Assembly: GCA_039636795.1 (NCBI GenBank)
Contig: CP143430.1
Location: 2,294,001 to 2,358,000, forward strand
DNA length: 64,000 nt
Direction of reading: 5' to 3'
DNA from: Micrococcaceae bacterium Sec5.1
GTDB lineage: Bacteria; Actinomycetota; Actinomycetes; Actinomycetales; Micrococcaceae
Each line of letters begins with the position of its first letter. Position 1 is the first letter of the stretch. Positions 1,329 to 55,516 of the stretch are shown here, in pieces. The position numbers and the translations under genes were made by a program. The notes under the pieces are model-generated. The model had not been told where the DNA came from. It ran no database searches and worked only from the letters and a program-made list of their open reading frames with translations.

Positions 1329-1347
1329 AATCCTATAATTTGGGATA
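1329..1347. promoter_or_regulatory. Regulon palindrome, site 1
   Basis: AATCCT-ATAATTT-GGGATA, a weaker member of the 19-bp TATCCY-N7-GGGATA family found eleven times in the window. A TATTAT that could be a -10 box overlaps its right edge. It sits about 75 bp upstream of the MFS gene starting at 1424. Confidence 0.6.
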
Positions 1348-1423
1348 TTATCTATACAATCCTAGCAACAAGGGAGTTGTTCGGACTTATGATTCGCCAA
1401 TTCTCTCGCCGAAAGGGGACATC

Positions 1424-2710
1424 TTGGTCACCCGCAAAGACATGCCCGCCAGAGTTCCGGGGATCGGCCTGGGCTTAACCCTTCTCTTTGCCTTCGTTGG
1501 CGGCGTCGGCGTAGGAAACCTGTACTGGGCCCAACCGCTTCTGGGAATCATAGCTGCAGAGCTAGGAGTCGGGCCAGGCGCGGCCGGGCTGCTCGTCACC
1601 CTGTCGCAAGTCGGCTATGCGCTCGGCGTGTTCTTCGTTGTGCCGCTCGGCGACACCATGCAGCGGAAGCGCCTGATCCCGGCCATCATGATCTGCTGTT
1701 CCCTGTCATTGGTGGGCTGCGCGTTGGCACCCGACTTCGCTCTTCTTTTGTCAACTCTTGCCCTGGTTGGCTTCACCAATGTTGCCGGTCAAATGCTGCT
1801 GCCGCTCGCCGGTGACCTGGCCACGGATGCGCAGCGCGCACGCGTACTCGGGACGGTGGCTTCCGGGCTTTTATCGGGCATCCTGCTTTCCCGATTAGTT
1901 AGCGGTATGGTGGCGGACGTCTTGGGATGGCGCATGATTTACGTTTTGGCGTCAGGGACGATTCTGGTTCTTGCCGTCATCATGTGGTTCGCAATTCCAG
2001 TCCTCAAGCCCAGGGAGCGGCTATCCTACGGCCGGCTCCTCCACTCGGTTCTCCAGGTGGCTTTTTGGTATCGGCAGGCCAGGGTGATCCCACTCTTTGG
2101 AGCGTCGTTGATGTGCGTATTCACCGCATTCTGGACTGGGCTCACGCTGTTGCTGTCTGCGCCTCCGTTCGCCTTCCAGTCATCACACGTTGGCCTGGTG
2201 AGCCTGCTCGGGGTCCTGGGAATCATCGGCGCCCGGTTCACTGGACGGGTATATGACCGCGGGTGGGCGGTGCCTGCCATCGGCATTGGGTTAATTGTTG
2301 CCTTGGTGGGGATCGCTTGCGCCGGTTTCGGCGGCGCGTCCATCGTCGCCATACTTATTGCTGTTTCATTACTCTCCGTCGGCACCCAATCCGTACTAGT
2401 GCTCCTCCAAACGATGATGGTCTCGATTGACCCCGCCGCACGCAGCCGCCTAAACACGGTCCACATTGTCAGCAATTTCATTGGCGGTGCCCTCGGTTCA
2501 ACCCTGACCGCTCTACTTTGGCAGGTCGGCCAGTGGACGGCGGTCATGGCGTGCTCTGCACTCGTCATCATTTTTGCGCTCACATTATGGCTTCGCCACA
2601 GAAAGCGGGGCCTCGCCGCCTCCACTAAACAGATCGAGGGAGTTGAGTCGCCGAAGCAACAATGCCAGGACAGACCGTGCCAGCGGCGGGCCGAATCAAG
2701 TGTTATTTGA
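1424..2710 (+). CDS. MFS transporter (AraJ/YdhP-like)
   Basis: A major facilitator with about 12 hydrophobic segments. The first helix is followed by NLYWAQPLLGIIAAELGV, resembling the YYxQPLLxxLAxEF motif of the COG2814 sugar/drug efflux group, and an RxR-type cytoplasmic loop (MQRKRL) follows helix 2. I chose a TTG start because GAAAGGGGAC lies 5-6 bases before it and it begins just ahead of the first helix; an ATG at 1442 is an alternative. Product about 428 residues, the usual family length. Site 1 of the regulon palindrome lies in its promoter, which ties it to the catabolic regulon. Direction of transport and substrate are not known. Confidence 0.8.
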   Translation: MVTRKDMPARVPGIGLGLTLLFAFVGGVGVGNLYWAQPLLGIIAAELGVGPGAAGLLVTLSQVGYALGVFFVVPLGDTMQRKRLIPAIMICCSLSLVGCALAPDFALLLSTLALVGFTNVAGQMLLPLAGDLATDAQRARVLGTVASGLLSGILLSRLVSGMVADVLGWRMIYVLASGTILVLAVIMWFAIPVLKPRERLSYGRLLHSVLQVAFWYRQARVIPLFGASLMCVFTAFWTGLTLLLSAPPFAFQSSHVGLVSLLGVLGIIGARFTGRVYDRGWAVPAIGIGLIVALVGIACAGFGGASIVAILIAVSLLSVGTQSVLVLLQTMMVSIDPAARSRLNTVHIVSNFIGGALGSTLTALLWQVGQWTAVMACSALVIIFALTLWLRHRKRGLAASTKQIEGVESPKQQCQDRPCQRRAESSVI

Positions 2711-3145
2711 GAGCCACGGGGCTGCCCATACTTGGGTGAAGAACTGCTGTGACTAACCTTCCGGCGTTCCGATACCCTCATTGCCGCTAGGTCGGCTGCA
2801 ATCACAACACCCCCCGAATCATGAACGACTGGGGCGAACCATGCCGGAACCAACCCTGCCGACACGCCCTCACCCAACAGAACTGGGCTGCGAAAAAGGG
2901 TATCGACGCTTAGAGACGCGCACGCCTTCCGATGCGCGACACCCGAAAATTATGCAGCACAGCGAGCAGAAGGAAGGATGGTCGATCTCGTCCACCCATT
3001 CCTCGAATACGCCTCGTCTGGCCAGCAGCAGCGGGTCTCCCCAAGCCAACAACGCATGGTATGAGTCCAACCCTTCTGGCCGTATCACCCCAATCGGGTA
3101 ATACGGCCATCTTTGCCGGGCTGGCTGCACATCGTTGAGAGGCGC
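2711..3145. other. Gene-free stretch between convergent genes
   Basis: No ORF here has credible family features or a good ribosome site. The only structure seen is the hairpin at 3077-3109. Confidence 0.6.
3077..3109 (-). terminator. Hairpin after the ADH operon
   Basis: TGGCCGTAT (3077-3085) pairs with ATACGGCCA (3101-3109), with an inner CCC/GGG pair. It lies about 40 bp past the stop of the minus-strand dehydrogenase at 3146. There is no clear T-run, so it may be a stabilising hairpin. Confidence 0.5.
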
Positions 3146-4159
3146 TCAGGGGACGATAACGCCCTTGCCGCTGCTCTGGCGGTCGAACCATTCGTAGGCC
3201 TTCACTGCCTCGCTCAGTTTCCAGCGATCCGTAAAGAGTGCGTCGACGGCGATGCCGCGGTCAAGGACGAAGTCTGCCAACCGGCCCATCTGCTCTGTCG
3301 AGAGCGTCCACGAAGTCTTGGCCGTTACTTGCTTTGAAAGCAGTTCTGTCATGTCGACCTGTAGCGGAGCTCCCCGCCCCACCCAGCACAGGGTACTCCA
3401 GAGGCCCAGCACCTGAAGCGCCTGGTTGGTAGCGATCGGCGCACCTGATGTCTCAAGGCTTTTCGTCACGCCGAGGCCTCCGGTGAGGTCGAGAACTGCC
3501 TCCCGGACGGAGCCGACCTCGAGCGGATTGATGGTTTCGGCCGCGCCAAACTCACGAGAACGTTCCAGCCGGTGCGGCTCGATATCGAGCGCGATGACCT
3601 TGGCTCCGAGCGCGGTGGCCAACTGGGTAGCGGAGAGACCTACCGGTCCCTGCCCGAAGATGGCGATGGTGTCGTCGCCGCGCAGATTGATCATTTCGAG
3701 TGCCCCCCACGCAGTTCCCGTGCCGCAGCTGATGGCGGCGGCGGCTTCGAAGGACAGGCCGTCAGGCAGAGGCATCACGATCGAAAACGGCACCTTGATG
3801 TAGTTGGCGTGCCCCCCGTTCACGGCGTATCCGAGCGCACGGTGTTCCTCACGGCACATGTGGGTCCAGCCCGTCCGGCACTGGTCGCAGCGTCCGCAAC
3901 CGATGTAGTGGTGGATCATCACCCGGCGCCCTATCCACGACGCCGGCACCAGATCGCCGGCGGCCACGACGACGCCGGCGGGTTCGTGTCCGGCGATCGC
4001 TTTCGGCGTCTGGCCCTGTGGTTTTCGGTACTCGTGTAGGTCTGATCCGCACATTCCCGACGCGCGGACTTCGACGACGACCTCATCGGGTCCGGGGCTT
4101 GGATCCGGAAATTCCCGCAACTCGAGTTTGCGGTCTCCCTTGAATAGAACTCCTTGCAT
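3146..4159 (-). CDS. Zinc-dependent MDR alcohol dehydrogenase
   Basis: A 337-residue medium-chain dehydrogenase. It shows the catalytic zinc ligand Cys37 in GMCGSDLHEY, GHEPAG in the catalytic domain, a complete four-cysteine structural-zinc lobe (GCGRCDQCRTGWTHMC) and a Rossmann motif GQGPVGLSA. Family activity is NAD(P)-linked oxidation of a secondary alcohol or polyol; the substrate is unknown. AAGGAG precedes the ATG. It is the last gene of a minus-strand operon MFS (7230) - ALDH (5749) - ADH, which suggests uptake, alcohol oxidation and aldehyde oxidation of one compound. It is a paralogue of the ADH at 33369-34397. Confidence 0.9.
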   Translation of the reverse strand: MQGVLFKGDRKLELREFPDPSPGPDEVVVEVRASGMCGSDLHEYRKPQGQTPKAIAGHEPAGVVVAAGDLVPASWIGRRVMIHHYIGCGRCDQCRTGWTHMCREEHRALGYAVNGGHANYIKVPFSIVMPLPDGLSFEAAAAISCGTGTAWGALEMINLRGDDTIAIFGQGPVGLSATQLATALGAKVIALDIEPHRLERSREFGAAETINPLEVGSVREAVLDLTGGLGVTKSLETSGAPIATNQALQVLGLWSTLCWVGRGAPLQVDMTELLSKQVTAKTSWTLSTEQMGRLADFVLDRGIAVDALFTDRWKLSEAVKAYEWFDRQSSGKGVIVP

Positions 4160-4276
4160 GGGATTCTCCTTGATATAGAAAGCTAAACGTGCGTGGTCAG
4201 CGGCTCACACCATCGGTGGGTGGCTAAAAGGGGTCGCACAGCTTTCGAAGTGCGGCACCGGAAAGGCCAGGGTTAT

Positions 4277-7230: not shown

Positions 7231-7527
7231 GGTGTGTCTCCTCGTTGAGTGCCTGCATGATGCTGCTGAAGTAAGGAACTTCTCTGGTCGTTGGGGGGCA
7301 ATCAAGAGCCCCACGACCGTTGAAGTGCCCTCGATGACCTTGATAAGGCTTGTGCAGGCTGCTTGCGACGTCCGTTTGCGGGCGGCCGCATGCAGTCACA
7401 GGGCCTTCGAGGTACCTTGTCCAAAGTCATTTGTGAGTGACGAAGGCGCCAATGCCTGGGTCAGCACAGGATTCAGATGGCTTTTGTGGAGCGTCGGCTT
7501 GTGTAACTCAGTTCCAGAAGTGACAGT

Positions 7528-7546
7528 ATCCTGTTATGTAGGATTT
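7528..7546. promoter_or_regulatory. Regulon palindrome, site 2
   Basis: TATCCT-GTTATGT-AGGATT between the divergent MFS operon (minus) and the IclR gene at 7712 (plus). Read on the minus strand it occupies the spacer between TTGACG and TACTGT, giving an operator-in-promoter arrangement for the MFS-ALDH-ADH operon. The rest of 7231-7711 has no gene. Confidence 0.75.
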
Positions 7547-7711: not shown

Positions 7712-8506
7712 ATGAGTGCGGAACTGGAGCGCGGACTGCAGGCGATAGAGCTGATGAGCCAGGCGCCACGCGGGCTCACTTTCACTGACATTGCCGAGGG
7801 TTTGGAGACTTCCAAAGGCCCCACGCACCGGCTCATCAGTGAGCTGGTACGTCTGGGATATGTGCGAATCGACGAGTTTGGACGTTACCACCTGACGCTG
7901 AAACTTACGTCTCACGCCCTGCACTACCTCGAACTAATCCCGCTGGTGGACCTGGCGGGCCCCCTGCTGGAAGACCTCGCGATGGCCAGCGGGGAACTCG
8001 CGCGGCTGAACCTTGTAGACGGAAACCATCTTGTACGCGTCAGCAAGGCCCAGGGCAGGCAGTCCGGCCTGAAGTACGATCCCCTTCATGTTCACGGCGG
8101 CAACATTCCCCTTGCCTCCACGGCCAGCGGTTTACTCCTGCTTAGCGGCCTCCCCGACGACGAAGCTGCGATGCGTTTACAGGCAGAGGGTTTCGCGCCC
8201 TCGGACGAGTACGGCTCTGCTGCGCCCCGCAGCCTCGAAGAGGCCCTGGAGATACTGCACAGGGCACGGAAGGTTGGCTACCTGTACCTACCCAACATCT
8301 TTGAGGAAGGCATTGCGGCCCTTGCCTATCCTATCCGAGCGGCCGGCAGCACTGATATCGTCGGCGTACTCACCGTATCCGGACCCAGCTTCCGCTTCAC
8401 CGAACAGGCAGCCCAAGGCGTGCTGCCTGTCATGGAGAAAATCGCCGACGAACTCGGACGCATACCTTTGGCAGACATGCTCGGATCCTACGTCCCCACC
8501 CGGTAG
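7712..8506 (+). CDS. IclR-family transcriptional regulator
   Basis: A 264-residue IclR protein: winged helix-turn-helix at about 18-65 (LTFTDIAEGLETSKGPTHRLISEL) and a C-terminal effector domain (LASTASGLLLL, AALAYPIRA, GVLTVSGP). It stands divergent to the MFS-ALDH-ADH operon and is its natural local regulator. Its recognition helix (SKGPTHR) differs from that of the two IclR paralogues at 24.3 and 30.9 kb (SRSTGYR), so it need not bind the window-wide palindrome. Effector unknown. Length is typical. Confidence 0.93.
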   Translation: MSAELERGLQAIELMSQAPRGLTFTDIAEGLETSKGPTHRLISELVRLGYVRIDEFGRYHLTLKLTSHALHYLELIPLVDLAGPLLEDLAMASGELARLNLVDGNHLVRVSKAQGRQSGLKYDPLHVHGGNIPLASTASGLLLLSGLPDDEAAMRLQAEGFAPSDEYGSAAPRSLEEALEILHRARKVGYLYLPNIFEEGIAALAYPIRAAGSTDIVGVLTVSGPSFRFTEQAAQGVLPVMEKIADELGRIPLADMLGSYVPTR

Positions 8507-9096: not shown

Positions 9097-9115
9097 TATC
9101 CCGTTATTCGGGATA
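9097..9115. promoter_or_regulatory. Regulon palindrome, site 3 (perfect)
   Basis: TATCCC-GTTATTC-GGGATA. The symmetry extends one base further each side (9096-9116), making this a perfect two-arm palindrome and the most regular copy in the window. TAGACA stands at the left edge as a possible -35 box. It is flanked by gene remnants on both sides; the first intact gene to the right is the dehydrogenase at 9404. Confidence 0.75.
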
Positions 9116-9129: not shown

Positions 9130-9345
9130 CGTGTTGGTCCGGAAGACGACATGATGAGGTGCGTACCGGGCGGCACGGTGGAAGGCAGGGCCGCCATAGT
9201 TGCTGAAGAACCAATCGGCTGCCTGGGCCAGCAGGAAGAGATCGCCGCCGCGGTATTTTTGGTCGCCTCGCCAGTGGCAAGTTTCGTGAGCGGCTCCATT
9301 CTTGTCGTGCATGGCGGGCACACCATCCGGTATGACGTCGTCCAG
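9130..9345 (+). pseudogene. SDR C-terminal fragment
   Basis: The frame through 9205-9339 reads EEPIGCLGQQEEIAAAVFLV, then SFVSGSILVVHGGHT. This is the standard C-terminal end of SDR enzymes (PIGRxGxPEEIA...FVTGxxxxVDGG). No N-terminal Rossmann part exists upstream, and the region between palindrome site 3 and this tail is short and featureless. I read it as the leftover 3' end of a deleted SDR gene that was once expressed from site 3. Confidence 0.65.
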
Positions 9346-9403
9346 CCTGGGGCGCTGCACTTCCCAGACCAACCAAATCCTCAAGAAAAAGGGAACCAAC
9401 ATA

Positions 9404-10447
9404 ATGCGTGCAACCTTGATGTACGGCCCTGGTGACGTCCGGGTCGAGAACGTCCCGGACTCCGTCATCAAGCATCCTACAGATGCGCTGGTCCGAGTGA
9501 CTGCGTCGTGCATCTGCGGCAGCGACCTGCACCCATACCACTCCATGTCCCCTGTAAACGGGCCCGCCCGGATGGGTCATGAGTTCATCGGCATCATCGA
9601 GGATATCGGCTCAGCAGTGACCACGCTGAAGAAAGGTGACCTCGTGGTCTCCCCGTTCGCTATCTCCGACAACACCTGTGAGTACTGCCGCGAAAAGATG
9701 CACACATCCTGTTCGCACCACGAGGCAGGCTTTTGGGACACCATCCCGGACGAAGGTGGCCAGGCCGAGGCAGCGCGTGTCCCACTGGCGGACGGAACCC
9801 TCGTCAAGCTGCCAGTCGCCGTCGACTCAGCCCTCATCCCATCCCTGCTGACCCTCGCGGACGTCCTTGGCACTGGCCACCACGCCGCCCATGCAGGCGG
9901 CGTCAACAAGGGCACCAACGTCACAGTGATCGGTGATGGGGCGGTCGGGCTGATGGCCGTGCTGGCCGCTAAACGTCTAGGCGCCGAGCAGATCATTCTC
10001 ATGGGCCGGCACAAAGCCCGCACTGACCTCGGCCTCGATTTCGGCGCCACTGATGTTGTTTCCGCCCGCGGTGACGAAGGCATCGCGCAGGTCCGTGACT
10101 TGACCGGCGGCCACGGCACCCACGTGGTCCTTGAAGCGGTCGGACACATGCCGGCCTATGACCAGGCAGTGGGCGTCGTCCGCCCCGGCGGCATCATCAG
10201 CCGGGTTGGCGTCCCGCAGTACGAGGAAGGTCCCATTGGGTTCGGCAGCCTGTTCCGGCACAACATCAAACTCACTGGAGGACCCGCACCGGTGCGGGCA
10301 TACATTGACGAGCTGCTGCCCGAAATTCTCAACGGCACCATAGAACCGGGCAAAGTATTTGACGTCACCACCAACATGGACGGCGTTCCTCAGGGATACA
10401 AGGACATGGACGAGCGCAGGAGCCTCAAGATCCTCATCCAACCCTGA
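9404..10447 (+). CDS. Zinc-dependent MDR dehydrogenase
   Basis: A 347-residue MDR enzyme. It has the catalytic zinc Cys in SCICGSDLHPYH, GHEFIG, a structural-zinc segment with three visible cysteines (NTCEYCREKMHTSC) and a cofactor motif GDGAVGLMA at mid-protein. I use the ATG at 9404, preceded by AAAGGGAA, rather than the longer reading that overlaps the SDR remnant. The segment EAGFWDTIPDEGGQAE resembles the glutathione-independent formaldehyde/alcohol dehydrogenase branch. Transcribed alone from the site 3 region. Substrate unknown. Confidence 0.9.
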   Translation: MRATLMYGPGDVRVENVPDSVIKHPTDALVRVTASCICGSDLHPYHSMSPVNGPARMGHEFIGIIEDIGSAVTTLKKGDLVVSPFAISDNTCEYCREKMHTSCSHHEAGFWDTIPDEGGQAEAARVPLADGTLVKLPVAVDSALIPSLLTLADVLGTGHHAAHAGGVNKGTNVTVIGDGAVGLMAVLAAKRLGAEQIILMGRHKARTDLGLDFGATDVVSARGDEGIAQVRDLTGGHGTHVVLEAVGHMPAYDQAVGVVRPGGIISRVGVPQYEEGPIGFGSLFRHNIKLTGGPAPVRAYIDELLPEILNGTIEPGKVFDVTTNMDGVPQGYKDMDERRSLKILIQP

Positions 10448-16096: not shown

Positions 16097-16133
16097 GATC
16101 GGGGTTCTCCTGTGGGGTGGCGTGTGGGGTGGG

Positions 16134-16958
16134 TTAGCTGCTGTGGGTGTAGCCGCCGTCGCAGGCGATGGTTTGGCCGGTGATGAAGGCAGCGGCGGGT
16201 GTGGCGAGGAAGAACATGATGCCGACGAGGTCGGTGGGGACCATTCCGCGGGGGATGCATTGCAGGGACGCGGCGCGTTCGCGGACTTCGGCGGTGGGGT
16301 TGACGGTGCGTTCGACTTCGGTGGCGACGCTGCCGGGGCGGATGCAGTTGACGGTGATCCCGTGGCTGCCGAGTTCACGGGCCAGGGAGTTGGTCATGCC
16401 GATCAGTGCTGATTTGGAAGTGACGTAGTGCAGGTAGTTCACGGTGCCGCGGGTGACTGCGTCGGATGAGATGTTGATGATACGGCCGAAGCCGGCTTTG
16501 CGCATGTGGGCAGCGACTGCTTTGACGCAGAGGTAAGTGCCGGTGATGTTGACCTTCAGTACGTGTTCCCACTGCTCCAGGGGGATCTCGTCGAACGGGC
16601 CCTTGTCGATGCTCGCGAAGATCGAGGCGTTGTTGATCAGCACGTCGACCCGGCCCCAGGTTTGGATCACGGTGTCGACCATGGCGGTGACGGACGCTTC
16701 GTCGGCCACGTTCACCTTGACGGCCAGGCCTACCCCGCCGGCGTCATGAATTTCCTTCACGACTGCTTCGGCCTTGTCGATGGCAAGGTCGGCTACGACG
16801 GCAACGGCTCCGGCTGCTGCGAACTGGCGCGCCAGTTCCCGCCCGATGCCCTGGGCTGCGCCGGTGACAATAACTACCCGCCCCTCGACGCTGAAGTCCC
16901 GCGCTGATGCCGGGACGCCGGAGTCATGGGGAATGTGGGTCAGGGGTGTCGTCGTCAT
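16134..16958 (-). CDS. SDR dehydrogenase, copy A
   Basis: A 274-residue classical SDR: TGAAQGIG cofactor motif near residue 32, NNAS, a catalytic NISS serine, YVTSK (YxxxK) and the C-terminal GQTIACDGG. The protein is identical to that encoded at 23270-24094. GAGGAA precedes the ATG at 16958. It is the first gene of the operon SDR-ALDH-HpcH-PanE-like, transcribed from the divergent promoter with palindrome site 4, and should oxidise a hydroxyl group or reduce a carbonyl with NAD(P). Substrate unknown. Confidence 0.95.
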   Translation of the reverse strand: MTTTPLTHIPHDSGVPASARDFSVEGRVVIVTGAAQGIGRELARQFAAAGAVAVVADLAIDKAEAVVKEIHDAGGVGLAVKVNVADEASVTAMVDTVIQTWGRVDVLINNASIFASIDKGPFDEIPLEQWEHVLKVNITGTYLCVKAVAAHMRKAGFGRIINISSDAVTRGTVNYLHYVTSKSALIGMTNSLARELGSHGITVNCIRPGSVATEVERTVNPTAEVRERAASLQCIPRGMVPTDLVGIMFFLATPAAAFITGQTIACDGGYTHSS

Positions 16959-17101
16959 GGTCGATTCCTCGTTGGTTTCGCATCGTGATGGTGGTAGAGG
17001 CAGTGATGAACAGGGGTTGCCGTCATAAACCCGCATTCACCCGTAACCGCCTAAAGCGGTGTGGGAAACAGGAGCGGCGGAACCCCCTTGCCCTTGAACA
17101 A

Positions 17102-17120
17102 TATCCCGCCATGTGGGATA
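17102..17120. promoter_or_regulatory. Regulon palindrome, site 4
   Basis: TATCCC-GCCATGT-GGGATA in the divergent region between the SDR (minus) and cupin (plus) genes. On the minus strand TTGACA, an 18-bp spacer made of the palindrome, and TATTGT form a near-consensus promoter. On the plus strand TTGAAC and TAGTGT take the same places, so one operator can serve both directions. Confidence 0.85.
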
Positions 17121-17230
17121 GTGTCAATGGACGGCGGCCGGTTCTGCACGAATTGCAGCGGCGGGCCGGGCGCCCCACCCCCGCGGATCTTGCCGGGGGA
17201 ATACATCGACTTTGTGTTAAGGAGCAGGAC

Positions 17231-18070: not shown

Positions 18071-18083
18071 CCACCACAGACCA

Positions 18084-22144: not shown

Positions 22145-22157
22145 TGGTCTGTGGTGG

Positions 22158-23107: not shown

Positions 23108-23126
23108 TATCCCACATGGCGGGATA
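23108..23126. promoter_or_regulatory. Regulon palindrome, site 5
   Basis: Mirror copy of site 4 (reads TATCCC-ACATGGC-GGGATA on the plus strand). TTGACA and TATTGT with 18 bp between drive the SDR on the plus strand; the opposite strand serves cupin-kinase-aldolase. Confidence 0.85.
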
Positions 23127-24334: not shown

Positions 24335-25147
24335 TTATTGACTCTGTTGGTTCCCCAGCAGGCGTCCGGATATGGTCGATGCCGCTTGCTTGACAGCGAG
24401 GACCGCTTGCTGGACCTCCACGTCGCGCCGGGCTTTTTCATCCCAGGCGACACCGACACTGCCCAAGGCTACCTTTTGCTCGTTGAAAATCGGTGCTGCG
24501 AGGCCGTAGACGCCGGGGTTGAATTCTCCCATGGTCAGCAAGTAGCCGTCTTTCTTTATCTCGCCCAAAGTCTTGCGGAAGACGCTCCAGGTGCTGCCCA
24601 GTCCGGCGTCCTCAATTTCAGTGCTGTGACGGGCGTAGATGGCTTTCAGCCGGTGGTGGGGGAAATGGGCGAGGATGACTTTCGATACTGCCCCTTGGAA
24701 CAGGGGCCGTCGCTGCCCCCGGCTAAACCGGTTGGCCGGACTCTTCGGGGCGCGGGCTTCTCCGATGCACAAGACGGAGTCACGGAACGCTGTACACAGA
24801 AGGGCTGAGTGCCCGATTTTGTCCACCAGGTCCTCGAGCACGCCATGGCTGGCCAGGAGTAATGGGTCGGTCTGGCGAATCTGCAGGTCCATCTCGATGA
24901 TCCGGGGGCCGAGGCTGTAGAAGCCGTTACGCACCGTGGTGAGCAGCCCTGCATCATGCAGGGTCTTAATGTACCGGTATCCCGTTGACCTGGAAGTCTC
25001 CAGAGCTTCAATAATATCCGCTGTTGACCAAACAGGCTCAGCTTCACTGAACAGGTCCAGAACGTTCAGCATCCTTGCCAGACTCCCAGCGCTATCTGGA
25101 GCCGCAATACTTTCCCCAGCGCCATCCAATGAACCGCGTCCTCCCAT
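24335..25147 (-). CDS. IclR-family regulator, paralogue 1
   Basis: A 270-residue IclR protein. Winged HTH at about 22-85 with recognition helix ETSRSTGYRYIK; the C-terminal effector domain includes GHSALLCTAFRDSVLCIGE, GAVSKVILAHFP and the AAPIF/GSVGVAW pair. It is highly similar (over 80 per cent by eye) to the protein at 30924-31793, with an identical recognition helix, so both should bind the same operator; the repeated TATCCY-N7-GGGATA palindrome is the candidate. It lies after ALDH paralogue 1 but is separated from it by a strong hairpin, so it probably has its own promoter. Confidence 0.93.
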   Translation of the reverse strand: MGGRGSLDGAGESIAAPDSAGSLARMLNVLDLFSEAEPVWSTADIIEALETSRSTGYRYIKTLHDAGLLTTVRNGFYSLGPRIIEMDLQIRQTDPLLLASHGVLEDLVDKIGHSALLCTAFRDSVLCIGEARAPKSPANRFSRGQRRPLFQGAVSKVILAHFPHHRLKAIYARHSTEIEDAGLGSTWSVFRKTLGEIKKDGYLLTMGEFNPGVYGLAAPIFNEQKVALGSVGVAWDEKARRDVEVQQAVLAVKQAASTISGRLLGNQQSQ

Positions 25148-29603: not shown

Positions 29604-29622
29604 TATCCTGCAATCTGGGACA
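29604..29622. promoter_or_regulatory. Regulon palindrome, site 6
   Basis: TATCCT-GCAATCT-GGGACA between the MFS-SDR-ALDH unit (minus) and two cupin genes (plus). Minus: TTGACT-N18-TATTGT. Plus: TTGACA-N18-CATAGT. Both strands thus have a TTGAC -35 box flanking the same operator. The rest of 29348-29771 has no gene. Confidence 0.85.
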
Positions 29623-30923: not shown

Positions 30924-31793
30924 CTATCTTGAGGTGGCCTGCGGCGATGGATGGGCCCTGGCCACTGGCGGACCTTCTGGCTCGTGAAGGGTGCTGTTTT
31001 CCAGGAGGCGTTTGGATATGGTCGTTGCAGCCTGTTTTACGGCGAGCACTGCGTGCTGGACGTCGACATCGCGCCGCTCGTTTTCATTCCACGCGACTCC
31101 CACACTGCCCAGGGCTGTTTTCTGGCCGGTGAGGATGGGTGCTGCAACTCCGTAGACGCCGGGGTTGAACTCTCCTTTGGTCAGGAGGTAGCCGTCTTTC
31201 TTGATCCCGCCCAAGGTCTTGCGGAAGACGCTCCATGTACCACCCAGTCCGGCGTCATCTATTTCGGTGCTGTGCCTGGTGTAGATGGTTTTCAGGCGGT
31301 GGTGGGGGAGATGGGCCAGGATGACCTTCGACCCGGCTCCTTGGAACAAAGGGCGCCGCTGCCCGCGGTTGAAGCGGTTGGCGGGACTCAATGGGGCGCG
31401 GTACTCTCCGATACACAGGACCGAGTCACGGAACGCCGTTAGCAGAAGAGCGGAGTGCCCGATCTTGTCCACCAGGTCCTCGAGCACGCCTTGACTGGCC
31501 AGGAGAAGTGGGTCGGTCCGGCGAATCTGCAGGTCCATCTCGACGATCCGCGGGCCCAGGCTGTAATAGCCGTTGCGCACGGCGGTGAGCAGGCCAGCGT
31601 CATGCAGGATTTTGATATATCGGTATCCTGTAGAGCGCGAGGTCTCCAGAGCCTCGATGAGGGCAGCTGCGGACCAGACTGGCCTGGTGTCGGTAAAGAG
31701 CTCTAAAACGTTGAGCATCCTCGCCAGACTGCCAGTGGAGTCCTGACTATCTGTCACCTCATCGGTACTGGTCGGCAAAGCGCTTTCTGCCAT
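30924..31793 (-). CDS. IclR-family regulator, paralogue 2
   Basis: A 289-residue IclR protein highly similar to paralogue 1 at 24335-25147, with the same recognition helix (ETSRSTGYRYIK) and effector-domain blocks (GHSALLLTAFRDSVLCIGE, GAGSKVILAHLP). The C-terminus carries about 20 extra residues. Only 45 bp separate it from the ALDH upstream, so it is probably the last gene of the operon ADH-ALDH-IclR under site 7 and would be induced with it. It may compete with or replace paralogue 1 at the shared palindromes. Confidence 0.93.
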   Translation of the reverse strand: MAESALPTSTDEVTDSQDSTGSLARMLNVLELFTDTRPVWSAAALIEALETSRSTGYRYIKILHDAGLLTAVRNGYYSLGPRIVEMDLQIRRTDPLLLASQGVLEDLVDKIGHSALLLTAFRDSVLCIGEYRAPLSPANRFNRGQRRPLFQGAGSKVILAHLPHHRLKTIYTRHSTEIDDAGLGGTWSVFRKTLGGIKKDGYLLTKGEFNPGVYGVAAPILTGQKTALGSVGVAWNENERRDVDVQHAVLAVKQAATTISKRLLENSTLHEPEGPPVARAHPSPQATSR

Positions 31794-34671: not shown

Positions 34672-34690
34672 TATCCTGCATTATGGGACT
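34672..34690. promoter_or_regulatory. Regulon palindrome, site 7
   Basis: TATCCT-GCATTAT-GGGACT between the ADH-ALDH-IclR operon (minus) and the MmgE/PrpD gene (plus). Minus strand: TTGACC-N18-TATCAT. The remainder of 34398-34762 holds no gene. Confidence 0.8.
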
Positions 34691-37681: not shown

Positions 37682-37701
37682 CTTTGTGAGGCCGAATCTG
37701 C

Positions 37702-39185: not shown

Positions 39186-39218
39186 GCCGCGGGTTCCGGA
39201 TTGGATGGGGCCCGCGGC
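39186..39218 (-). terminator. Hairpin after binding protein 3
   Basis: GCCGCGGG (from 39186) pairs with CCCGCGGC (to 39218), with further C-G and G-U pairs inside, about 20 bp after the stop of copy 3. No T-run; it may limit read-through to copies 2 and 1 or stabilise the mRNA. Confidence 0.6.
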
Positions 39219-39238
39219 TTATGTGAGGAAGACGATGC

Positions 39239-40525: not shown

Positions 40526-40566
40526 CGAAGTAACTCCTCATCGGGATGTTTGGTGGGTGCGCCCAT
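40522..40566 (-). CDS. Possible 14-codon leader ORF of binding protein 3
   Basis: AAAGGAGAG, then ATG and 14 codons (MGAPTKHPDEELLR), with TGA overlapping the lipoprotein ATG. The SD and first codons lie in the loop and arm of a GGGCGCCCAT / ATGGGCGC hairpin, so start access could be structure-dependent. No proof of translation. Confidence 0.35.
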   Translation of the reverse strand: MGAPTKHPDEELLR

Positions 40567-40744
40567 GGCTCTCCTTTGATATGGGCGCCCAAGAATTAGC
40601 GAGCTGGGACGGATGGCAAAGCTTTTGAGCCTCCGCTCAAGGTCATGAAGCTTGTAGAGCCGCGCTGCAGTGGCCAGAAGTCGGCTTTATCGCCATCTCC
40701 ACATGGACAGGAACGGCTTTGTGTTCTTGCTCACGCTTGAAGAA

Positions 40745-40763
40745 TATCTCGTAATGTGGGATA
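40745..40763. promoter_or_regulatory. Regulon palindrome, site 8
   Basis: TATCTC-GTAATGT-GGGATA between binding protein 3 (minus) and the permease (plus). Minus strand: TTGACA-N18-TATTCT. The 320 bases from the site to the permease start contain no credible gene. Confidence 0.8.
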
Positions 40764-41082
40764 GTGTCAATCAATCGGAATCGGCTCCTACGTGGACGAA
40801 GCGGAGGGGCCGGAAGCCGTAATCCCTGGTTTGGCCGGGGGTGGATGACTATTTCAAGGGCAGGAGTGCCTGACCGCCCATCGGCGGGAAAGTCTCCTGC
40901 CTTGCGCAGCGCATGAGCAAAACCGCTTGTGACCTACAACACGTTCGCGTTAGGTGGAGGAAAATGCAGCCAATCCGCGCGAACCAATCCTTCGGTCGCT
41001 CTGGCCGAAACTTCAGTGAAGCAATGCTGCTTCTGACCCGGAGGTTCAAAGAAGTGTTGAAAACCCTGCGGAGGTATCCGCG

Positions 41083-42141
41083 ATGACTACAGATGTGACA
41101 CGGAACGGCCCGACCTACATTCCGCCGGCCGCCTCCCAAAACCGGCTGACGGACTTGAAGTACCGATTTCCGGCGCGATATCTGGCCAGCTGGGGCGCAC
41201 TGCTCCTGCTGCTGCTTTTTGCATTGGTGATTGCCCCCGCCAGCCTGGGTGGGAATTCAGTCCGGGTCGTCAGTGCCCTCGCGGGTGTTCTCGCTTTGGC
41301 AGCAATGGGGCAGATGCTTGTCGTGATGTTGGGCGCAATCGATCTTTCGGTCTCTGCCGTGGTTGCTGCCTCGGCCGGAATAGTAGTCCACTACGGTGTG
41401 CCGGGAGCAAACCTGTGGCTCGTCATTCCCGCAGCCCTTGTGCTGTCCATGTTTATAGGCATCGTCAACGGCTTCTTTATCTGCGTTCTTCGACTCAACT
41501 CGATCATCGTCACACTGGCTACCTACGGAATTGTCACGGGCGGGATGCTTCTGTGGACCGGTGTGTCTTTCTCGCTGACTGGGGAAGCGCCGGAGCAGCT
41601 GCAGCAATTTGCGCAGTGGTCCCTCCTGAACATCAACATGTGCTTCATAGCGGCGCTCATTGTCGGTTTGATCCTTGCTGCTGTTCTCTCCTACACCCGT
41701 GCGGGGCGCAGGGTCGCCCAGGTCGGATCGAATCCTCGGGCAGCGACCGCCCTCGGCGTGCGGGTTGCCCTGGTACAGATGAGCACATTCGCCGCCGTCG
41801 GCCTTCTCTACGGAATCGCCGGTGTGCTGATTGCCGGCTTCATTGGAACGCCGGACATCTCCATCGGCGCACCCTACCAACTCGCGACGGTGACGGCCGT
41901 GGCTATCGCCGGGCTCACCTTCAGTGGCGGCCCAACCAGCGTCGCAAGCCTGCTCGTATCCTGCGTCTTCCTGCAGTTGCTGGATCAGGCACTTGTTGTG
42001 GCCGGGTTCCCCACGGGCGCGCGAATTATGATTCAGGGCTTCACCCTTGTCGTCGCAGTGGCGGCGATCACCATCAGCCAATACGGCCTCGCCGGAATCC
42101 GGCGGATTGCAGCGCTGCAGCTGGGAAGGCCACTGAAATGA
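41083..42141 (+). CDS. ABC sugar importer permease
   Basis: A 352-residue BPD_transp_2 (RbsC/XylH-like) permease. After a 35-residue cytoplasmic N-terminus come about ten membrane segments. It contains MLGAIDLSVSAVVAASAG, the family's GxxDLSVG motif, and an EAA-like loop GSNPRAATALGVRVALVQ. GGAGG nine bases before the ATG. The stop overlaps the start of the fused ATPase-permease gene (ATGA), so the two are translationally coupled. It should pair with the C-terminal membrane domain of the next protein to form the channel. Confidence 0.94.
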   Translation: MTTDVTRNGPTYIPPAASQNRLTDLKYRFPARYLASWGALLLLLLFALVIAPASLGGNSVRVVSALAGVLALAAMGQMLVVMLGAIDLSVSAVVAASAGIVVHYGVPGANLWLVIPAALVLSMFIGIVNGFFICVLRLNSIIVTLATYGIVTGGMLLWTGVSFSLTGEAPEQLQQFAQWSLLNINMCFIAALIVGLILAAVLSYTRAGRRVAQVGSNPRAATALGVRVALVQMSTFAAVGLLYGIAGVLIAGFIGTPDISIGAPYQLATVTAVAIAGLTFSGGPTSVASLLVSCVFLQLLDQALVVAGFPTGARIMIQGFTLVVAVAAITISQYGLAGIRRIAALQLGRPLK

Positions 42142-44720
42142 CGAGTCAACTCACGCCGCCGCCGTCGCGAAGGACCAAAGGAGAACATGTAGTGGAAAAA
42201 ATCATGGACGTGGGGACTACACAAGCCGGCTCTGTGCCTGCGGAGACTGACTCGAAGGAGCCAGCCGTCGTCCTCGCGGGAGTGTCCAAGTCGTACCCGG
42301 GCGTGAAGGCCCTCAGCGACGTCAACTTCGACTGCCGGCCAGGAGAAGTCCATGCACTCGTGGGAGAAAATGGCTCCGGGAAGTCCACGCTTATCAAGAT
42401 CGCATCGGGCGTCCTTACCCATGACACTGGCGAAGTCACGATCGGAGGCCAAGCACTGGCCGGCGGATCGGTGAAACGCGCCCGCAAACTCGGGCTGATG
42501 ACTGCGTACCAGGACACCTCATTGGTTGAGGAACTTACCGTCGCCGACAACATCGCGCTATCCTTCAACGCCATCGGCGAGCCGCGTCCGGTGGATCTGG
42601 ACCGCCTTCTTGCCCGCTATGACCTGCCTTTCAAGCCCACGGACCTCGTCGGCGCGCTGGGCCCAGGCGCACGCCAGCTCCTCGAAGTCGCGAGGGCCAT
42701 GAGCCACCAGCCACGCGTCCTGATGCTCGATGAACCGACAGCGGCCCTGGACATGCAGTACGCGGCACACCTGGAGGGGCTGATCCGTCAGTCCCGCGAC
42801 GAGGGAGTCGCCATCGTTTACGTCAGTCACCGGCTCGAAGAGGTCCGCCGCCTCGCCGACAGGCTCACCGTCCTCCGTGACGGAGTGATCCAGGGAACCT
42901 GGAGTGGCCGAAACTGGGAAGTGGATGAAATAGTCGAAGTCATGGTCGGCGCGCCAACCGATCTCGAGTTTCCCACGCGGACGCCGTCCAAAGCGCAGGG
43001 TGACAGGCTCGAGGTCCGGGATCTGGCCGGGCAGGGGTACGGCCCCGTGTCCATCAGCGTCCGTCCAGGCGAGATCGTCGGCGTCGCAGGAGCAGAAGGC
43101 AACGGACAACGCGCCCTCCTGCGAGGCCTCATCGGAGAAAAGCGCACCTCCGGAGAGATCCTCGTCGACGGCAAGCACGTTGGACGGAGCGGTCCATCAG
43201 CCGCTTTAGATGCCGGGATCAGTTTCCAAAGCGGAGATCGCGCCGTGGAGTCTGTCTACAGCGAACTGTCCGTTATGGAAAACGCTACTGCGCAGCTGGG
43301 TCCTGAAAGCGGCCCATTCGGTCTCGCCTTGCCGGGCCACTTGCGGGCGGCTTTCAGTAAGGTTTCGAAGCAGCTCGGCATCGTGGCAGCATCGCCCTAC
43401 CAGCCCATCAGCGGCCTATCCGGGGGTAATCAGCAGAAAGCAGTCCTGGCCAGGCCAGCTCTGCGGCCCCCCAAAGTCCTGATAGTCGATGAACCGACTC
43501 AAGGTGTCGACGCGCGGGCCCGCATGGACATCTACCGCGTCCTGTCCAGTGCAGCCGAGGAAGGAATGGCCGTACTCGTAAATTCCTCAGACTCTGCTGA
43601 ACTGGCAGGGCTGTGCGACAGGGTCTACGTTATGTCACGGGGCAAGGTGGTCCAGGAAATCGCCAGTCCGATGACCGAGTCCGCCATCGTCCGTGGCTTT
43701 GTCAGTGCAGCTGACGTCGACCAAAGCCACGTCGATCAAGTGCCAAGCGACGCGGGGCTCATGTCCCGACTCATCGCACGCGCCACCTCAAATTTCCCCA
43801 TAGTTGTTCTGTTGCTGCTGACTGCAATAGTGGCGGGATATGCAGGCAGCCAATCGCCCTTTTTCTGGACCGGGCCCAACCTGGCGAACATGCTGATCAT
43901 CGCCCTTCCACTAGCCTTCGTCGCCCTCGGACAGCAGTTCACCATGCTTTCGAGAGGCTTCGACCTATCTATCGGGTCAACAATAAGTCTTACCGTAGTC
44001 TTGGTCTCCATGACGCTACCGGACTTAAGTACCGCGTCGCTGCTGGCAACGATTCCATTGCTTCTTCTCGTCGCGGCGGCCATCGGCGGTTTCAACGCAG
44101 TGCTGATTGGCTGGCTCAAAATCAACGCCGTGGTCGCCACTATCGCCACCATGGGCATTGTCCAGGGAATTGCAATCATCCTGCGCCCAGCCCCGGGTGG
44201 TGTCATTGCGCCCGACCTCGGAACAGCAGTCAGCCTCGGAATTGCATTCCTGCCGGCCCCCTTTATCGGCCTGATCGTGCTGACAATCGCACTGGAACTC
44301 TGGCTATTCCGCAGCCGTACGGGGCTGGCAGTGCGAGCTGCTGGCTTCAATCCCGAAGCAAGTCGTAGGATCGGGCGGCAAGTCGGCGTCATTCGGGCCG
44401 TCGGACTTCTCGTGTGTGCTCTCGGCGCAGTCGTCGGTGGCGTGCTCCTGGCATCCCAGACAGGCATCGGCTCCAACGCCGTCGGAGCTACCTACTCTCT
44501 TCCCGCGTTCGCCGCAGTGTTCCTGGGAGGGGCAGTTATGACCGGCGGCAGGGGCTCGTTCGTCGGCGCCCTTCTGGGTGCCGTGTTCCTCTCGCTGCTC
44601 GACAATGTCACCCCGCTGCTGAACATCCCAAATGCGACCGAGCAAGTCATTTACGGCATCATCCTGCTCGTTGCAGTGTCGGGTTACACGGTGGCCCAGC
44701 GGGTACGAACCCGCAAATGA
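42138..44720 (+). CDS. Fused sugar ABC ATPase (two NBDs) and permease
   Basis: An 860-residue single ORF. Residues about 40-270: first nucleotide-binding domain with Walker A GENGSGKST, Walker B LMLDEPTAAL and a degenerate signature LGPGARQ. About 285-515: second NBD with a degenerate Walker A (GAEGNGQRA), a clear signature LSGGNQQK and Walker B LIVDEPTQGVD, as in RbsA/MglA. About 535-860: a complete RbsC-like permease with SRGFDLSIGS and an FNPEASRRIGRQVG loop. RbsA and RbsC are normally separate proteins. No stop or frameshift exists at the junction. The start may instead be a GTG at 42192 with AAAGGAG upstream. Confidence 0.93.
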   Translation: MTSQLTPPPSRRTKGEHVVEKIMDVGTTQAGSVPAETDSKEPAVVLAGVSKSYPGVKALSDVNFDCRPGEVHALVGENGSGKSTLIKIASGVLTHDTGEVTIGGQALAGGSVKRARKLGLMTAYQDTSLVEELTVADNIALSFNAIGEPRPVDLDRLLARYDLPFKPTDLVGALGPGARQLLEVARAMSHQPRVLMLDEPTAALDMQYAAHLEGLIRQSRDEGVAIVYVSHRLEEVRRLADRLTVLRDGVIQGTWSGRNWEVDEIVEVMVGAPTDLEFPTRTPSKAQGDRLEVRDLAGQGYGPVSISVRPGEIVGVAGAEGNGQRALLRGLIGEKRTSGEILVDGKHVGRSGPSAALDAGISFQSGDRAVESVYSELSVMENATAQLGPESGPFGLALPGHLRAAFSKVSKQLGIVAASPYQPISGLSGGNQQKAVLARPALRPPKVLIVDEPTQGVDARARMDIYRVLSSAAEEGMAVLVNSSDSAELAGLCDRVYVMSRGKVVQEIASPMTESAIVRGFVSAADVDQSHVDQVPSDAGLMSRLIARATSNFPIVVLLLLTAIVAGYAGSQSPFFWTGPNLANMLIIALPLAFVALGQQFTMLSRGFDLSIGSTISLTVVLVSMTLPDLSTASLLATIPLLLLVAAAIGGFNAVLIGWLKINAVVATIATMGIVQGIAIILRPAPGGVIAPDLGTAVSLGIAFLPAPFIGLIVLTIALELWLFRSRTGLAVRAAGFNPEASRRIGRQVGVIRAVGLLVCALGAVVGGVLLASQTGIGSNAVGATYSLPAFAAVFLGGAVMTGGRGSFVGALLGAVFLSLLDNVTPLLNIPNATEQVIYGIILLVAVSGYTVAQRVRTRK

Positions 44721-45398: not shown

Positions 45399-45417
45399 AA
45401 TCCTGCAATGTGAGATA
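45399..45417. promoter_or_regulatory. Regulon palindrome, site 9
   Basis: AATCCT-GCAATGT-GAGATA, with TTGATG and TAATTG as possible promoter boxes on the plus strand. It lies 160 bp upstream of the unknown gene at 45579. Confidence 0.65.
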
Positions 45418-45578
45418 ATTGAAATTGTTGGCGTGCGCCAATGCAGCACACCAGCAGAGGAGAAGTCAGCTGTCAGCTCTGTTCGAAGGATCGACTTGAT
45501 TCAGGCCTGCACCTTTCTCCATGGAAGAGACGGACGCCAGACAGGTTATTTGCTTTTACCGGAGGCCAGGAGGAATGC

Positions 45579-46013
45579 ATGGAAGACAACCGTAAGCGCC
45601 CACGCTTCAGGGGATACTTTGTCGGGTCAGCCACGGTCATCGGAGCATCCTACGGCCAAGGAACGACTAATTTGGAACTACAGGCTTTCACCGGTGAATA
45701 CATCGAGTACTCCATTGACGCCGTTCCCGACTCCGCGGGGGCAGCCGAGCTCCCCGGTAAGAATTTTCGTCCCATCTCGGTCAAGATCCAGCACGGTGGA
45801 GAGCGCTGCAGTGTGATTGCGCTGACCCCGGCTGGAACTCGACGCACAAGCGTAACTCTGGGCACGGCCCTTGCCCTACACCAGTCCGGAGTCCACACGG
45901 TGGTTGAAGGGGGCCTGCAGGCCGAAGTGTCTTGTCCCAGACCGCAACGGTCGGGAAGCTCCACGCGGCGCCTCAAACCCGTCGCCACAAATGCGGTAAT
46001 GAAGACGCGGTAG
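45579..46013 (+). CDS. Unknown protein in the regulon
   Basis: A 144-residue ORF with a strong AGGAGG before its ATG and palindrome site 9 upstream. The middle (GYFVGSATVIGASYGQGTTNLELQAFTGEYIEYS) alternates hydrophobic residues as in a beta sheet; ALTPAGTRRTSVTLGTALALHQSGVHTVVEG follows. The last 25 residues are basic and low in complexity and border an IS remnant, so the original C-terminus may have been altered. I do not recognise the family. Presence of operator and ribosome site argues for a real, regulated gene. Confidence 0.5.
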   Translation: MEDNRKRPRFRGYFVGSATVIGASYGQGTTNLELQAFTGEYIEYSIDAVPDSAGAAELPGKNFRPISVKIQHGGERCSVIALTPAGTRRTSVTLGTALALHQSGVHTVVEGGLQAEVSCPRPQRSGSSTRRLKPVATNAVMKTR

Positions 46014-50060: not shown

Positions 50061-50289
50061 GCTACCTCCTCGTAGGTGCGCCCGATATCGGGCCGAATAT
50101 GCGGCACCGAAAGGCGCCAATCTTGGATATCTGACTTTCGTAAAGCGAATGGTAAGCCAGTCTAGAATTTTATCCCTGCGGCAACTGCAGTGTTATTGGT
50201 AACACACTGTGGCACTTGAGGCTCGAGTGGAGGACTTGGGTTTGTCCAAATAGTTGAAGCGCATCCTCAATCGACTTCTTGATTAATGA

Positions 50290-50308
50290 TATTCCGCTAT
50301 GCGGGATA
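50290..50308. promoter_or_regulatory. Regulon palindrome, site 10
   Basis: TATTCC-GCTATGC-GGGATA, with TTGACC-N18-TATCAT on the minus strand for the MFS-ALDH unit. It lies behind the end of MmgE/PrpD 2, not between divergent genes. The rest of 50061-50392 has no gene. Confidence 0.8.
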
Positions 50309-50392
50309 TGGTCAAGTACTCTTGTGGCCTGTTCCGAACTGAATGCTTTCACTCCTGGTACTTCTACAGACGCCCAATACTGCCCTGATCTG

Positions 50393-53994: not shown

Positions 53995-54807
53995 TCAGTC
54001 GCCCTTTGAGGCACCTGCACCCATGCGCCGCGACAATTCCTTACACGTTTCCACCAACAACTCGCGTGCTTGATCGACCGGCACATTGCCCATGCCATTG
54101 AGGCGATGGATGAAAGGCGTGGTCATGGCAGCTACAGCCTTACCCGTGTAGTCGAAGACTGGCGCTGAGATGTTCGTGACCCCTTCAATCGTGAGCGATT
54201 TTCCCTGGCAGAATCCGGCCTTGCGGACCTCAGGCAGGTCAGAAAGGAAGCGCGACCGGCGGGCGCTGGTCTCGTTGCCTGCGAGCATTAGCAGGTTCTG
54301 AAGTTCCGCGTCTGCCATGAACGCTGCCAGAACCCGGCCAGAAGCGGAATCGTCAATGGGGATCTGTGAACCCAAACGAACCGTGTTCACGTTGGTGTCC
54401 GGACAATCCGCTTGAGCAATAACAAGCAGCTTTCCCGAGCTAAGAATGCAGAGGTGAATGCTTTGACTGATGCGATTCGCGAGCTTCTGCATCTCATCGC
54501 CAGCAATGACTGTCAGGCGACGAATGATCGGTTGCCGATGCGCGACTTCAAACAGTTTCGTTGTTAAGTGATAGCGCTCGCCCTCATTGAGCTCTATGTA
54601 GCCGCGTTCGCGCAGCACCATAAGCACGCGGAAAATCTCCGAGGTAGTTCGGCCGAGTTTCTTGCCGATTTCTGCTTGGCCCAGCCCACTGTCCTCGGAG
54701 GCCAGGAGTTCCAGGATGTCGAGTCCCTTGGCCAGAGCCGGGGCCCGATACTTTCCCTCATCTGTTTCCGTTTGCACGCCCGCCCCGTTTCTCCTCCCCA
54801 TCCGCAC
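53995..54807 (-). CDS. IclR-family regulator of the lactonase operon
   Basis: A 270-residue IclR protein: winged HTH at about 25-85 (GQAEIGKKLGRTTSEIFRVLMVL), then the effector domain with SIHLCILSSGKLLVIAQ, DDSASGRVLAAF and NISAPVFDYTGKAVAAMT. The frame begins with GTG at 54807; an ATG two codons later is as good. The recognition helix (RTTSEIFR) differs from the other IclR proteins here. Transcribed alone, upstream of and in the same direction as the SDR-SMP30-MmgE unit, and with its own palindrome in front, which suggests autoregulation. Confidence 0.93.
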   Translation of the reverse strand: MRMGRRNGAGVQTETDEGKYRAPALAKGLDILELLASEDSGLGQAEIGKKLGRTTSEIFRVLMVLRERGYIELNEGERYHLTTKLFEVAHRQPIIRRLTVIAGDEMQKLANRISQSIHLCILSSGKLLVIAQADCPDTNVNTVRLGSQIPIDDSASGRVLAAFMADAELQNLLMLAGNETSARRSRFLSDLPEVRKAGFCQGKSLTIEGVTNISAPVFDYTGKAVAAMTTPFIHRLNGMGNVPVDQARELLVETCKELSRRMGAGASKGD

Positions 54808-54822
54808 TGGACGGGGTCATAA

Positions 54823-54838
54823 GTTTTATATATAAAAC
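54823..54838. promoter_or_regulatory. Perfect palindrome at the IclR promoter
   Basis: GTTTTATATATAAAAC, a perfect 16-bp palindrome 15-30 bases before the IclR start. Its arms resemble those of the repeat at 53646-53670. Confidence 0.6.
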
Positions 54839-54979
54839 CTATATGCTTGAACCGAATCAGGCAAGCGGTAACTCGATGGTCGTAGCCGTAGTTCCCATAG
54901 AGATTGTGAACAGCGTGGCGTGATGCAAAAAAGCGCTAGCCTCCGGTATCGATTTGGGTTTCCATACTCATCTCGACGC

Positions 54980-55260
54980 CAGGAGGCTCTCGTGGCCTAC
55001 GTCCCCAAGCCGACGCTGACCTGGCAGCCAAGGCCAGGGGGAGGCTGGCCTGGTTGGTCGTGGAGCAGGGCTGGACCTTGGGCGCGGCCGCAGAGCGGTC
55101 CAGTCCCGCCGGCCACCGGGAAGAAGTGAGTGGACCCGTACCTGCCGTGCCGACGACGGCATGGCGGACATGTCCTCGCGGCCACGTTGGAGCCAGAACC
55201 GCACTAATGTCCGCGCCGAACGGTGGATTTTGGCGCCGCGGTTCACCTGCCGGTGCTGTC
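54980..55260 (+). mobile_element. IS481-family transposase N-terminal remnant
   Basis: After CCAGGAGGCTCTC comes a start-like GTG. In shifting frames the text reads AKARGRLAWLVVEQGWTLGAAAERFQ, then GMADMSSRPRWSQNRT, matching the HTH and the SSRP segment of actinobacterial IS481 transposases. At least two frameshifts occur and nothing of the DDE core remains. Fossil only. Confidence 0.65.
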
Positions 55261-55497
55261 CTCAACGGGTCGCAGCCCACCTGCATCTTGCATCCTCGAC
55301 GGCTGGAAGGGTCCGGTCCGGGTGCCAGATGCCCGGCTGACCCGCCTGGACCAAGGCCCCGGGCTGCCCGTCCGCAAGCCAGCGCCCCAACGTTAGCGCC
55401 AAGATGTGGATGACCCCCAGCACGTAGGCGAGCGGAGTATTCGTAACATGCCTCCTTCATGAGGTTTACGAATCGATCCTCCCGGAATTCTGTACTA

Positions 55498-55516
55498 AGT
55501 CTCATAATGCAGGATA
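55498..55516. promoter_or_regulatory. Regulon palindrome, site 11
   Basis: On the minus strand TATCCT-GCATTAT-GAGACT, very close to site 7. It is 60 bp upstream of the UspA gene, with TATCCT placed as a -10 box on the plus strand. Confidence 0.65.

Follow-up and report, generated by a model that had tools for sequence, protein, structure and literature searches.

A 64,000-nt stretch of DNA (the window, in which all positions below are counted) from the 5.43-Mb single-contig genome of Micrococcaceae bacterium Sec5.1, a soil-type organism (positions 2294001–2358000; genome G000), carries a catabolic and transport island, probably for the breakdown of sugars or acids, together with repeated copies of a 19-bp palindrome, which raises the question whether the island is one regulon and which protein would read the palindrome. 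Joint control of the island as a single regulon is well supported at the sequence level, and the palindrome is best explained, with good confidence, as the predicted operator of two related IclR-family proteins encoded in the window, IclR_B and IclR_C, which would repress the island until a catabolite appears.

Copies of the palindrome start at 1329, 7527, 9097, 17102, 23108, 29604, 34672, 40745, 45399, 50290, and 55498. All eleven copies of the original prediction were thus recovered, with the second at 7527 rather than 7528, but they amount to ten independent sites, as 17102 and 23108 are one site duplicated within a perfect 2014-bp inverted repeat. Each of the 11 lies outside the genes called by codon usage, in keeping with the earlier statement that none falls inside a recognised coding sequence, and the sequences flanking the sites are unrelated to one another. 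Gene calls combined codon-usage scripts with Pfam and NCBIfam, and the operon limits given here are predictions. The core proposed earlier, TATCCY-N7-GGGATA, was exact at only three of the 11 sites (9097, 17102, and 23108), whereas the others carried 1 to 3 mismatches on the better strand, and 55498 was missed at 2 mismatches (counted by eye). With up to 2 mismatches, this strict core gave 20 strand-matches in the window vs. 3.87 expected, the largest number in 100 shuffles being 10; 18 of the 20 fell at ten of the sites, the exceptions being at 24092 and 59787. A better description of the motif is WATCCYRY-N3-RYRGGATW with an A/T centre.

A symmetric position weight matrix (PWM) was then built only from the 10 non-redundant sites of the window. 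All 11 sites scored 22.2–26.9 bits (20.0–25.9 bits for the ten in leave-one-out scoring), while the next best place in the window reached 9.0. In 400 kb of control DNA from the same genome, no place reached 20 bits and one reached 15 bits, and among 29.6 million simulated second-order-Markov positions one reached 20 bits and none 22, so that scores of this height are not readily produced by chance.

The motif was also confined to the island. Genome-wide counts were made as pattern matches, the hits of which were afterward scored with the PWM. Across the genome, the relaxed motif WATCYYRNNWNNYRRGATW was found without mismatch at 7 places, every one of them inside the window; with up to 1 mismatch it had 23 matches, of which 11 were the window sites and the other 12 scored 4.4–18.7 bits, compared with 6 matches for the reversed-pattern control. 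For the strict core with up to 1 mismatch, 7 of 17 forward matches in the genome lay in the window, and those off the window scored −4.0 to 15.5 bits. No place of at least 13 bits was found in the 60 kb flanking the window on either side. By these pattern counts, the motif is concentrated at its putative targets and not elsewhere in the genome, as expected for a single regulon, but distant members may exist.

Four IclR genes are present in the window:

7712-8506, plus strand, IclR_A.
24335..25072, minus strand, IclR_B, the proposed cognate regulator.
30924..31793, minus strand, IclR_C, a paralogue of IclR_B with 82% identity.
53995-54777, IclR_D.

The original prediction had pointed to the genes at 24.3 and 30.9 kb, a choice that is supported here, but had overlooked those at 7712 and 53995. 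Both domains of the IclR family were detected above the Pfam gathering scores, namely the N-terminal HTH_IclR and the C-terminal effector domain that Pfam calls IclR_C, in the proteins IclR_B (7.7e-08 and 1.2e-16, respectively) and IclR_C (8.4e-07 and 1.6e-12). The two proteins share the stretch SRSTGYRYIK, the presumed recognition helix.

The distribution of these proteins follows that of the motif. Among 61 genus genomes, IclR_B matches at E ≤ 1e-40 occurred in three, G000, G016, and G057. The strict core was found in 6 and the relaxed motif in 8 of the same genomes; matches of at least 20 bits were present only in the three with IclR_B, the best elsewhere being 19.2 bits (G002). Each genome or locus read that has a site of at least 20 bits has an IclR_B/C homologue. 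With the best 7 to 9 candidates per genome scored, relatives at E ≤ 1e-30 were found in 1 of 394 class genomes (its own) and 6 of 295 family genomes, by which count the IclR_B/C-type regulator is rare.

Beyond the window, 12 loci encode an IclR_B/C homologue with an identity of roughly 40% or higher; a C-terminal fragment that L055 has at its edge is not among them. When the 200 bp before these genes were searched with the window-only PWM, a site was found 50–190 bp upstream in 9 of the 12, namely L054 (Streptomyces carpinensis), L055 and L057 (Arthrobacter sp. Alg241-R88), L056 (Sinomonas susongensis), L058 (Pedococcus sp. 5OH_020), L063 (Arthrobacter sp. 135MFCol5.1, partial gene), L079, L081, and L082. 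The sites of L057 and L063 were weak (17.1 bits), and the homologues of L081 and L082, only 41–44% identical, still have an upstream site. In G016 and L080, the iclR gene sits after ADH-ALDH (alcohol and aldehyde dehydrogenase) genes, and the nearest upstream 20-bit site precedes that pair. Seven proteobacterial loci with homologues of 32–40% identity had no site of at least 20 bits and two of 15 bits.

Conservation of the sites was examined in G016, which carries a cluster syntenic with the window, using the intergenic regions of eight of the ten independent sites (29604 and 45399 were left out). Six of the eight regions keep the site at 15–19 of 19 positions, vs. 0.40–0.81 for their remaining positions. 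In the UspA region both genomes have a site, and that of G016 (24.7 bits) does not align base for base. Since exact matches are confined to the window, the sites are conserved in the syntenic cluster, they co-occur with IclR_B orthologues, and the motif stands directly upstream of iclR_B homologues in other genera, the earlier view that one regulon is present is supported.

How such a protein might act is suggested by the promoter-like sequences around the sites. As stated in the original prediction for operators 4–8 and 10, the palindrome fills the spacer of TTGACN-N18-TATNNT there; this pattern has 6 matches in the window, all 6 at these operators, with 0.08 expected:

17098..17127, minus strand, pattern enclosing operator 4.
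23101-23130, plus strand, pattern enclosing operator 5.
29600-29629, minus strand, pattern enclosing operator 6.
34668-34697, minus strand, pattern enclosing operator 7.
40741-40770, minus strand, pattern enclosing operator 8.
50286-50315, minus strand, pattern enclosing operator 10.

Several site flanks look promoter-like on both strands, and where units diverge, each strand has its −35 over the −10 of the opposite strand. The −35 element was then counted at 47 sites, that is, 52 of at least 15 bits minus 5 (two inverted-repeat copies, two Advenella sites, and one inside a gene), with the sites of L087–L092 outside the count. TTGA occupied the −35 position of 35 of 62 sides facing a called gene vs. 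8 of 32 sides not facing one (one-sided Fisher P 0.003), although some of the gene-less sides may hold uncalled genes and orthologous sites are not independent. Without G016, the numbers were 29 of 50 vs. 6 of 24, and in the window alone 10 of 14 vs. 1 of 6. The two-way promoter claimed earlier is supported at the sequence level, less strongly than the single regulon: when entire hexamers are compared, the difference in match numbers reaches only P 0.06, for the −35 as for the −10.

In the proposed mechanism, a dimer of IclR_B/C on the 19-bp site would cover the spacer between the −35 (TTGACN) and the −10 (TATNNT). At divergent units the site would be common to two overlapping promoters, so that a single dimer on the DNA would shut off transcription either way. 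The IclR effector domain would bind a substrate or intermediate of the pathway, perhaps a sugar acid or polyol acid, which would make the protein release the DNA, and the transporters, dehydrogenases, and aldolases of the island would then be switched on together. The regulators themselves would be controlled via the same operator, directly in the relatives and as the last genes of controlled operons here.

Several observations, beside the marginal hexamer difference, weigh against a common IclR_B/C operator in such promoters. T(−7) and A(−4) are no rarer on sides that face no gene, which could mean that an outer dyad of the operator makes up part of what looks like a −35. The sites of L081 and L082 lack TTGA where the −35 would be, and the promoter layout may thus not accompany the operator everywhere. 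No site stands directly before iclR_B in the window (best 1.1 bits) or in G016 (best −0.7 bits). Single matches of 17–19 bits occur in genomes without IclR_B (G002, G025, G035, and G058), and site 50290 is missing in G016. In L062, the presumed recognition helix starts with SR, but no place in its 20.6 kb reaches 13 bits. The two sites of L083 are separated from its iclR gene by about 5.4 kb, and the iclR_C homologue of L080 contains a 15.9-bit match within the gene. Finally, IclR_A and IclR_D each adjoin a site in the window and could bind some.

One alternative keeps the regulator and changes its sign: IclR_B/C could be mainly an activator, or could have a dual role in which one of the two divergent promoters is activated. 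The IclR family does include activators and dual regulators, according to Suvorova and Gelfand (2021, PMC8222616). However, the operator fills the −35/−10 spacer at six sites, where a dimer should exclude RNA polymerase, a geometry that argues for repression without being proof of it, and activation is considered rather unlikely.

A second alternative, that the sites are bound by IclR_A or IclR_D or are split among all four IclR proteins, gains from the position of site 7527 about 170 bp before iclR_A and of site 55498 between iclR_D and the UspA gene, and from the presence of both genes in G000 and G016, which have many sites, and of IclR_D in G695. However, G057 has the motif and IclR_B but neither IclR_A nor IclR_D at E ≤ 1e-60, for which reason either of them as sole regulator was rejected. 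The two proteins are 25% and 20% identical to IclR_B, respectively, and differ from it in the presumed recognition helix, while the strong sites are accompanied by an IclR_B/C homologue wherever they were read, as described above. Binding by IclR_A or IclR_D, alone or in a split, is accordingly regarded as quite improbable.

That no protein binds the palindrome specifically, and that it merely arose along with symmetric promoters or through repeat expansion, as the two-way flanks and the two copies from the inverted repeat might hint, is scarcely credible, because the constant T-C-C, G-G-A, and AT centre are not promoter elements, the flanks are unrelated, and sites recur upstream of iclR_B homologues in other genera.

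Extending the repressor reading of IclR_B/C, we tentatively propose, as a conjecture that may well fail, that reciprocal promoters are built into this one IclR subfamily. The two promoters would share about 33 bp, with the −35 of each on top of the −10 of its partner and the operator serving both as spacer; a single dimer would switch both directions, and on its release the polymerases would exclude each other. This unit would have spread across a patchily distributed catabolic island, with one copy kept identical in the inverted repeat by gene conversion.

The palindrome was compared with the IclR operators described by Suvorova and Gelfand (2021, PMC8222616). It agrees with the group 1 consensus GKTYCRYW3-4RYGRAMC in layout and at most positions, being palindromic with an AT-rich centre and having, counted from the centre, R at +2, Y at +3, purines at +4/+5, and A at +7; sites before the regulator's own gene and before catabolic operons, with sugar-acid and dehydrogenase genes among common targets, are likewise shared with that group. 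In contrast, +6 is G in 19 of 20 half-sites (consensus A) and +8 is T in 17 of 20 (consensus C), resulting in CCY-N7-RGG. GenR of Corynebacterium glutamicum, with ATTCC-N7(5)-GGAAT before 3-hydroxybenzoate and gentisate genes, is also an actinobacterial IclR-family regulator with N7 layout and GG arms, whereas the arm here is RGGATW and the genes are of sugar-acid type (PMC8222616). As a rule, an IclR regulator acts on its own gene and on one or two operons next to it, although regulogs comprise 1 to 55 clusters of orthologous groups (COGs) (PMC8222616); here about ten sites extend across 54 kb. The system is a new IclR regulon, with a variant operator of its own and a number of sites above the family norm, and not new in kind.

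The predicted promoters recall the bidirectional promoters of Warman et al. (2026, PMC12825309), which according to the abstract have hardly been studied so far. As in that class, one short DNA segment would serve both directions here and opposed polymerases would exclude each other. However, the class of that paper has a shared −10 element with divergent starts mostly 18 bp apart, also 10 or 23, whereas the sequence here does not suggest a single −10 used on both strands; each −10 would overlap the −35 of the opposite strand, with the operator between, and the starts would lie about 40 bp apart. Among open-licence papers, no description of the motif or regulon was found in the titles or abstract openings of the matches listed.

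These results assign a specific predicted operator to a rare IclR subfamily and join about 35 catabolic and transport genes, within predicted operon limits, into one testable unit. Substrate hunting becomes practical, as a reporter behind a single operator would reveal what induces the whole island, and the compact two-way promoters lend themselves to studies of repressor action on overlapping divergent promoters.

The operators and their putative target genes are given below, with open reading frame as ORF, major facilitator superfamily as MFS, short-chain dehydrogenase as SDR, and ATP-binding cassette as ABC; where G016 is mentioned, the fraction of conserved site positions is compared with that of the rest of the intergenic region:

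Operator 1, 1329..1347, about 80-95 bp before the MFS gene 1442-2710 (plus strand), start codon uncertain; 25.6 bits; G016 16/19 vs. 0.44.
Operator 2, 7527..7545, between MFS/ALDH/ADH genes (7230 to 3146, minus strand) and IclR_A (7712-8506, plus strand); 24.4 bits; G016 15/19 vs. 0.59.
Operator 3, 9097..9115, before ADH 9332-10447 (plus strand); 24.4 bits, exact core; G016 16/19 vs. 0.40.
Operator 4, 17102..17120, between SDR-ALDH-HpcH aldolase-PanE-like genes (16958 to 12813, minus strand) and cupin/racemase genes (17231 to 18915, plus strand); 24.8 bits; G016 18/19 vs. 0.77.
Operator 5, 23108..23126, inverted copy of operator 4, between cupin copy/SBD_N-NBD_C kinase/class II aldolase (22997 to 19443, minus strand) and the SDR copy 23270-24094 (plus strand).
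Operator 6, 29604..29622, between MFS-SDR-ALDH genes (29347 to 25454, minus strand) and a Cupin_2 ORF at about 29640-30299 (plus strand); 22.8 bits.
Operator 7, 34672..34690, between ADH-ALDH-IclR_C genes (34397 to 30924, minus strand) and MmgE/PrpD 34763-36157 (plus strand); 23.9 bits; G016 19/19 vs. 0.67.
Operator 8, 40745..40763, between three tandem substrate-binding protein genes (40525 to 36233, minus strand) and ABC permease/ATPase-permease genes (41083 to 44720, plus strand); 26.9 bits; G016 19/19 vs. 0.81.
Operator 9, 45399..45417, before ORF 45441-46013 (plus strand), no Pfam match; 25.3 bits.
Operator 10, 50290..50308, before MFS-ALDH genes (50060 to 47091, minus strand); 23.0 bits; not conserved in G016.
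Operator 11, 55498..55516, before UspA 55576-56004 (plus strand), between iclR_D and UspA; 22.2 bits.

A single dominant target gene was rejected, as the genes behind the sites range from transporters, dehydrogenases, and aldolases to a stress gene. In detail, MFS carriers lie downstream of sites at 1442, 5827, 27905, and 48687, of which 27905 passes the NCBIfam sugar-porter cut-off, and the genes of a sugar-type ABC system, which includes three binding proteins in tandem (36233-44720), lie on both sides of site 40745. Other putative targets are ADH, ALDH, and SDR genes, an HpcH-type aldolase with a PanE-like reductase, an SBD_N/NBD_C kinase (which we take to be of the DUF1537 type) with a class II aldolase, MmgE/PrpD, and UspA. 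PDB and NCBIfam searches for the substrate of the island, made with its enzymes and one binding protein, returned broad families or no match, and no literature on such a catabolic cluster was found among open-licence papers. The three tandem sugar-binding-type proteins (36233-40525) adjoin one ABC system, and G016 retains two of them. ORF 45441-46013 has relatives in G016 (59%) and G695 (44%), near sites of the same kind.

The iclR_B gene comes after the MFS-SDR-ALDH genes of operator 6 across a 381-bp gap. The ALDH genes 25454-26953 and 31839-33335 look alike and each is followed by an IclR_B/C-type gene, while G016 has one ALDH-IclR_B unit, which suggests that the paired units are a local duplication. 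Beside a 22.3-bit site of G016 (L048:11920), the stretch L048:12161-12775 is 46% identical to IclR_C with stop codons in the frame used, and may be the degenerate remnant of an additional regulator gene.

Two related palindromes of 18.7 and 13.5 bits, 21 bp apart, were found far from the window at G000:C1 4600089-4600128, just upstream of a gene that we take, from its DNA, to be aceE. The 18.7-bit place was considered as a far member of the regulon and rejected. When its palindrome was searched in 21 genus genomes with 3 mismatches allowed, it was present in the own genome and in 2 of 20 others, G008 and G012 (0 and 1 mismatch, respectively); because both carry it without IclR_B, it more likely belongs to another regulator, of which the pair is perhaps a tandem operator.

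The inverted repeat containing operators 4 and 5 consists of:

16111-18124, plus strand, left arm, 2014 nt.
22104-24117, right arm, 100% identical to the left arm.

The arms carry the SDR-cupin cassette with its operator around a 4-kb segment. The arms of G016 are 99.75% identical to each other and only 92.3% to those of the window, which points to continuing gene conversion that would keep the arms alike, and the 4-kb segment between them could flip.

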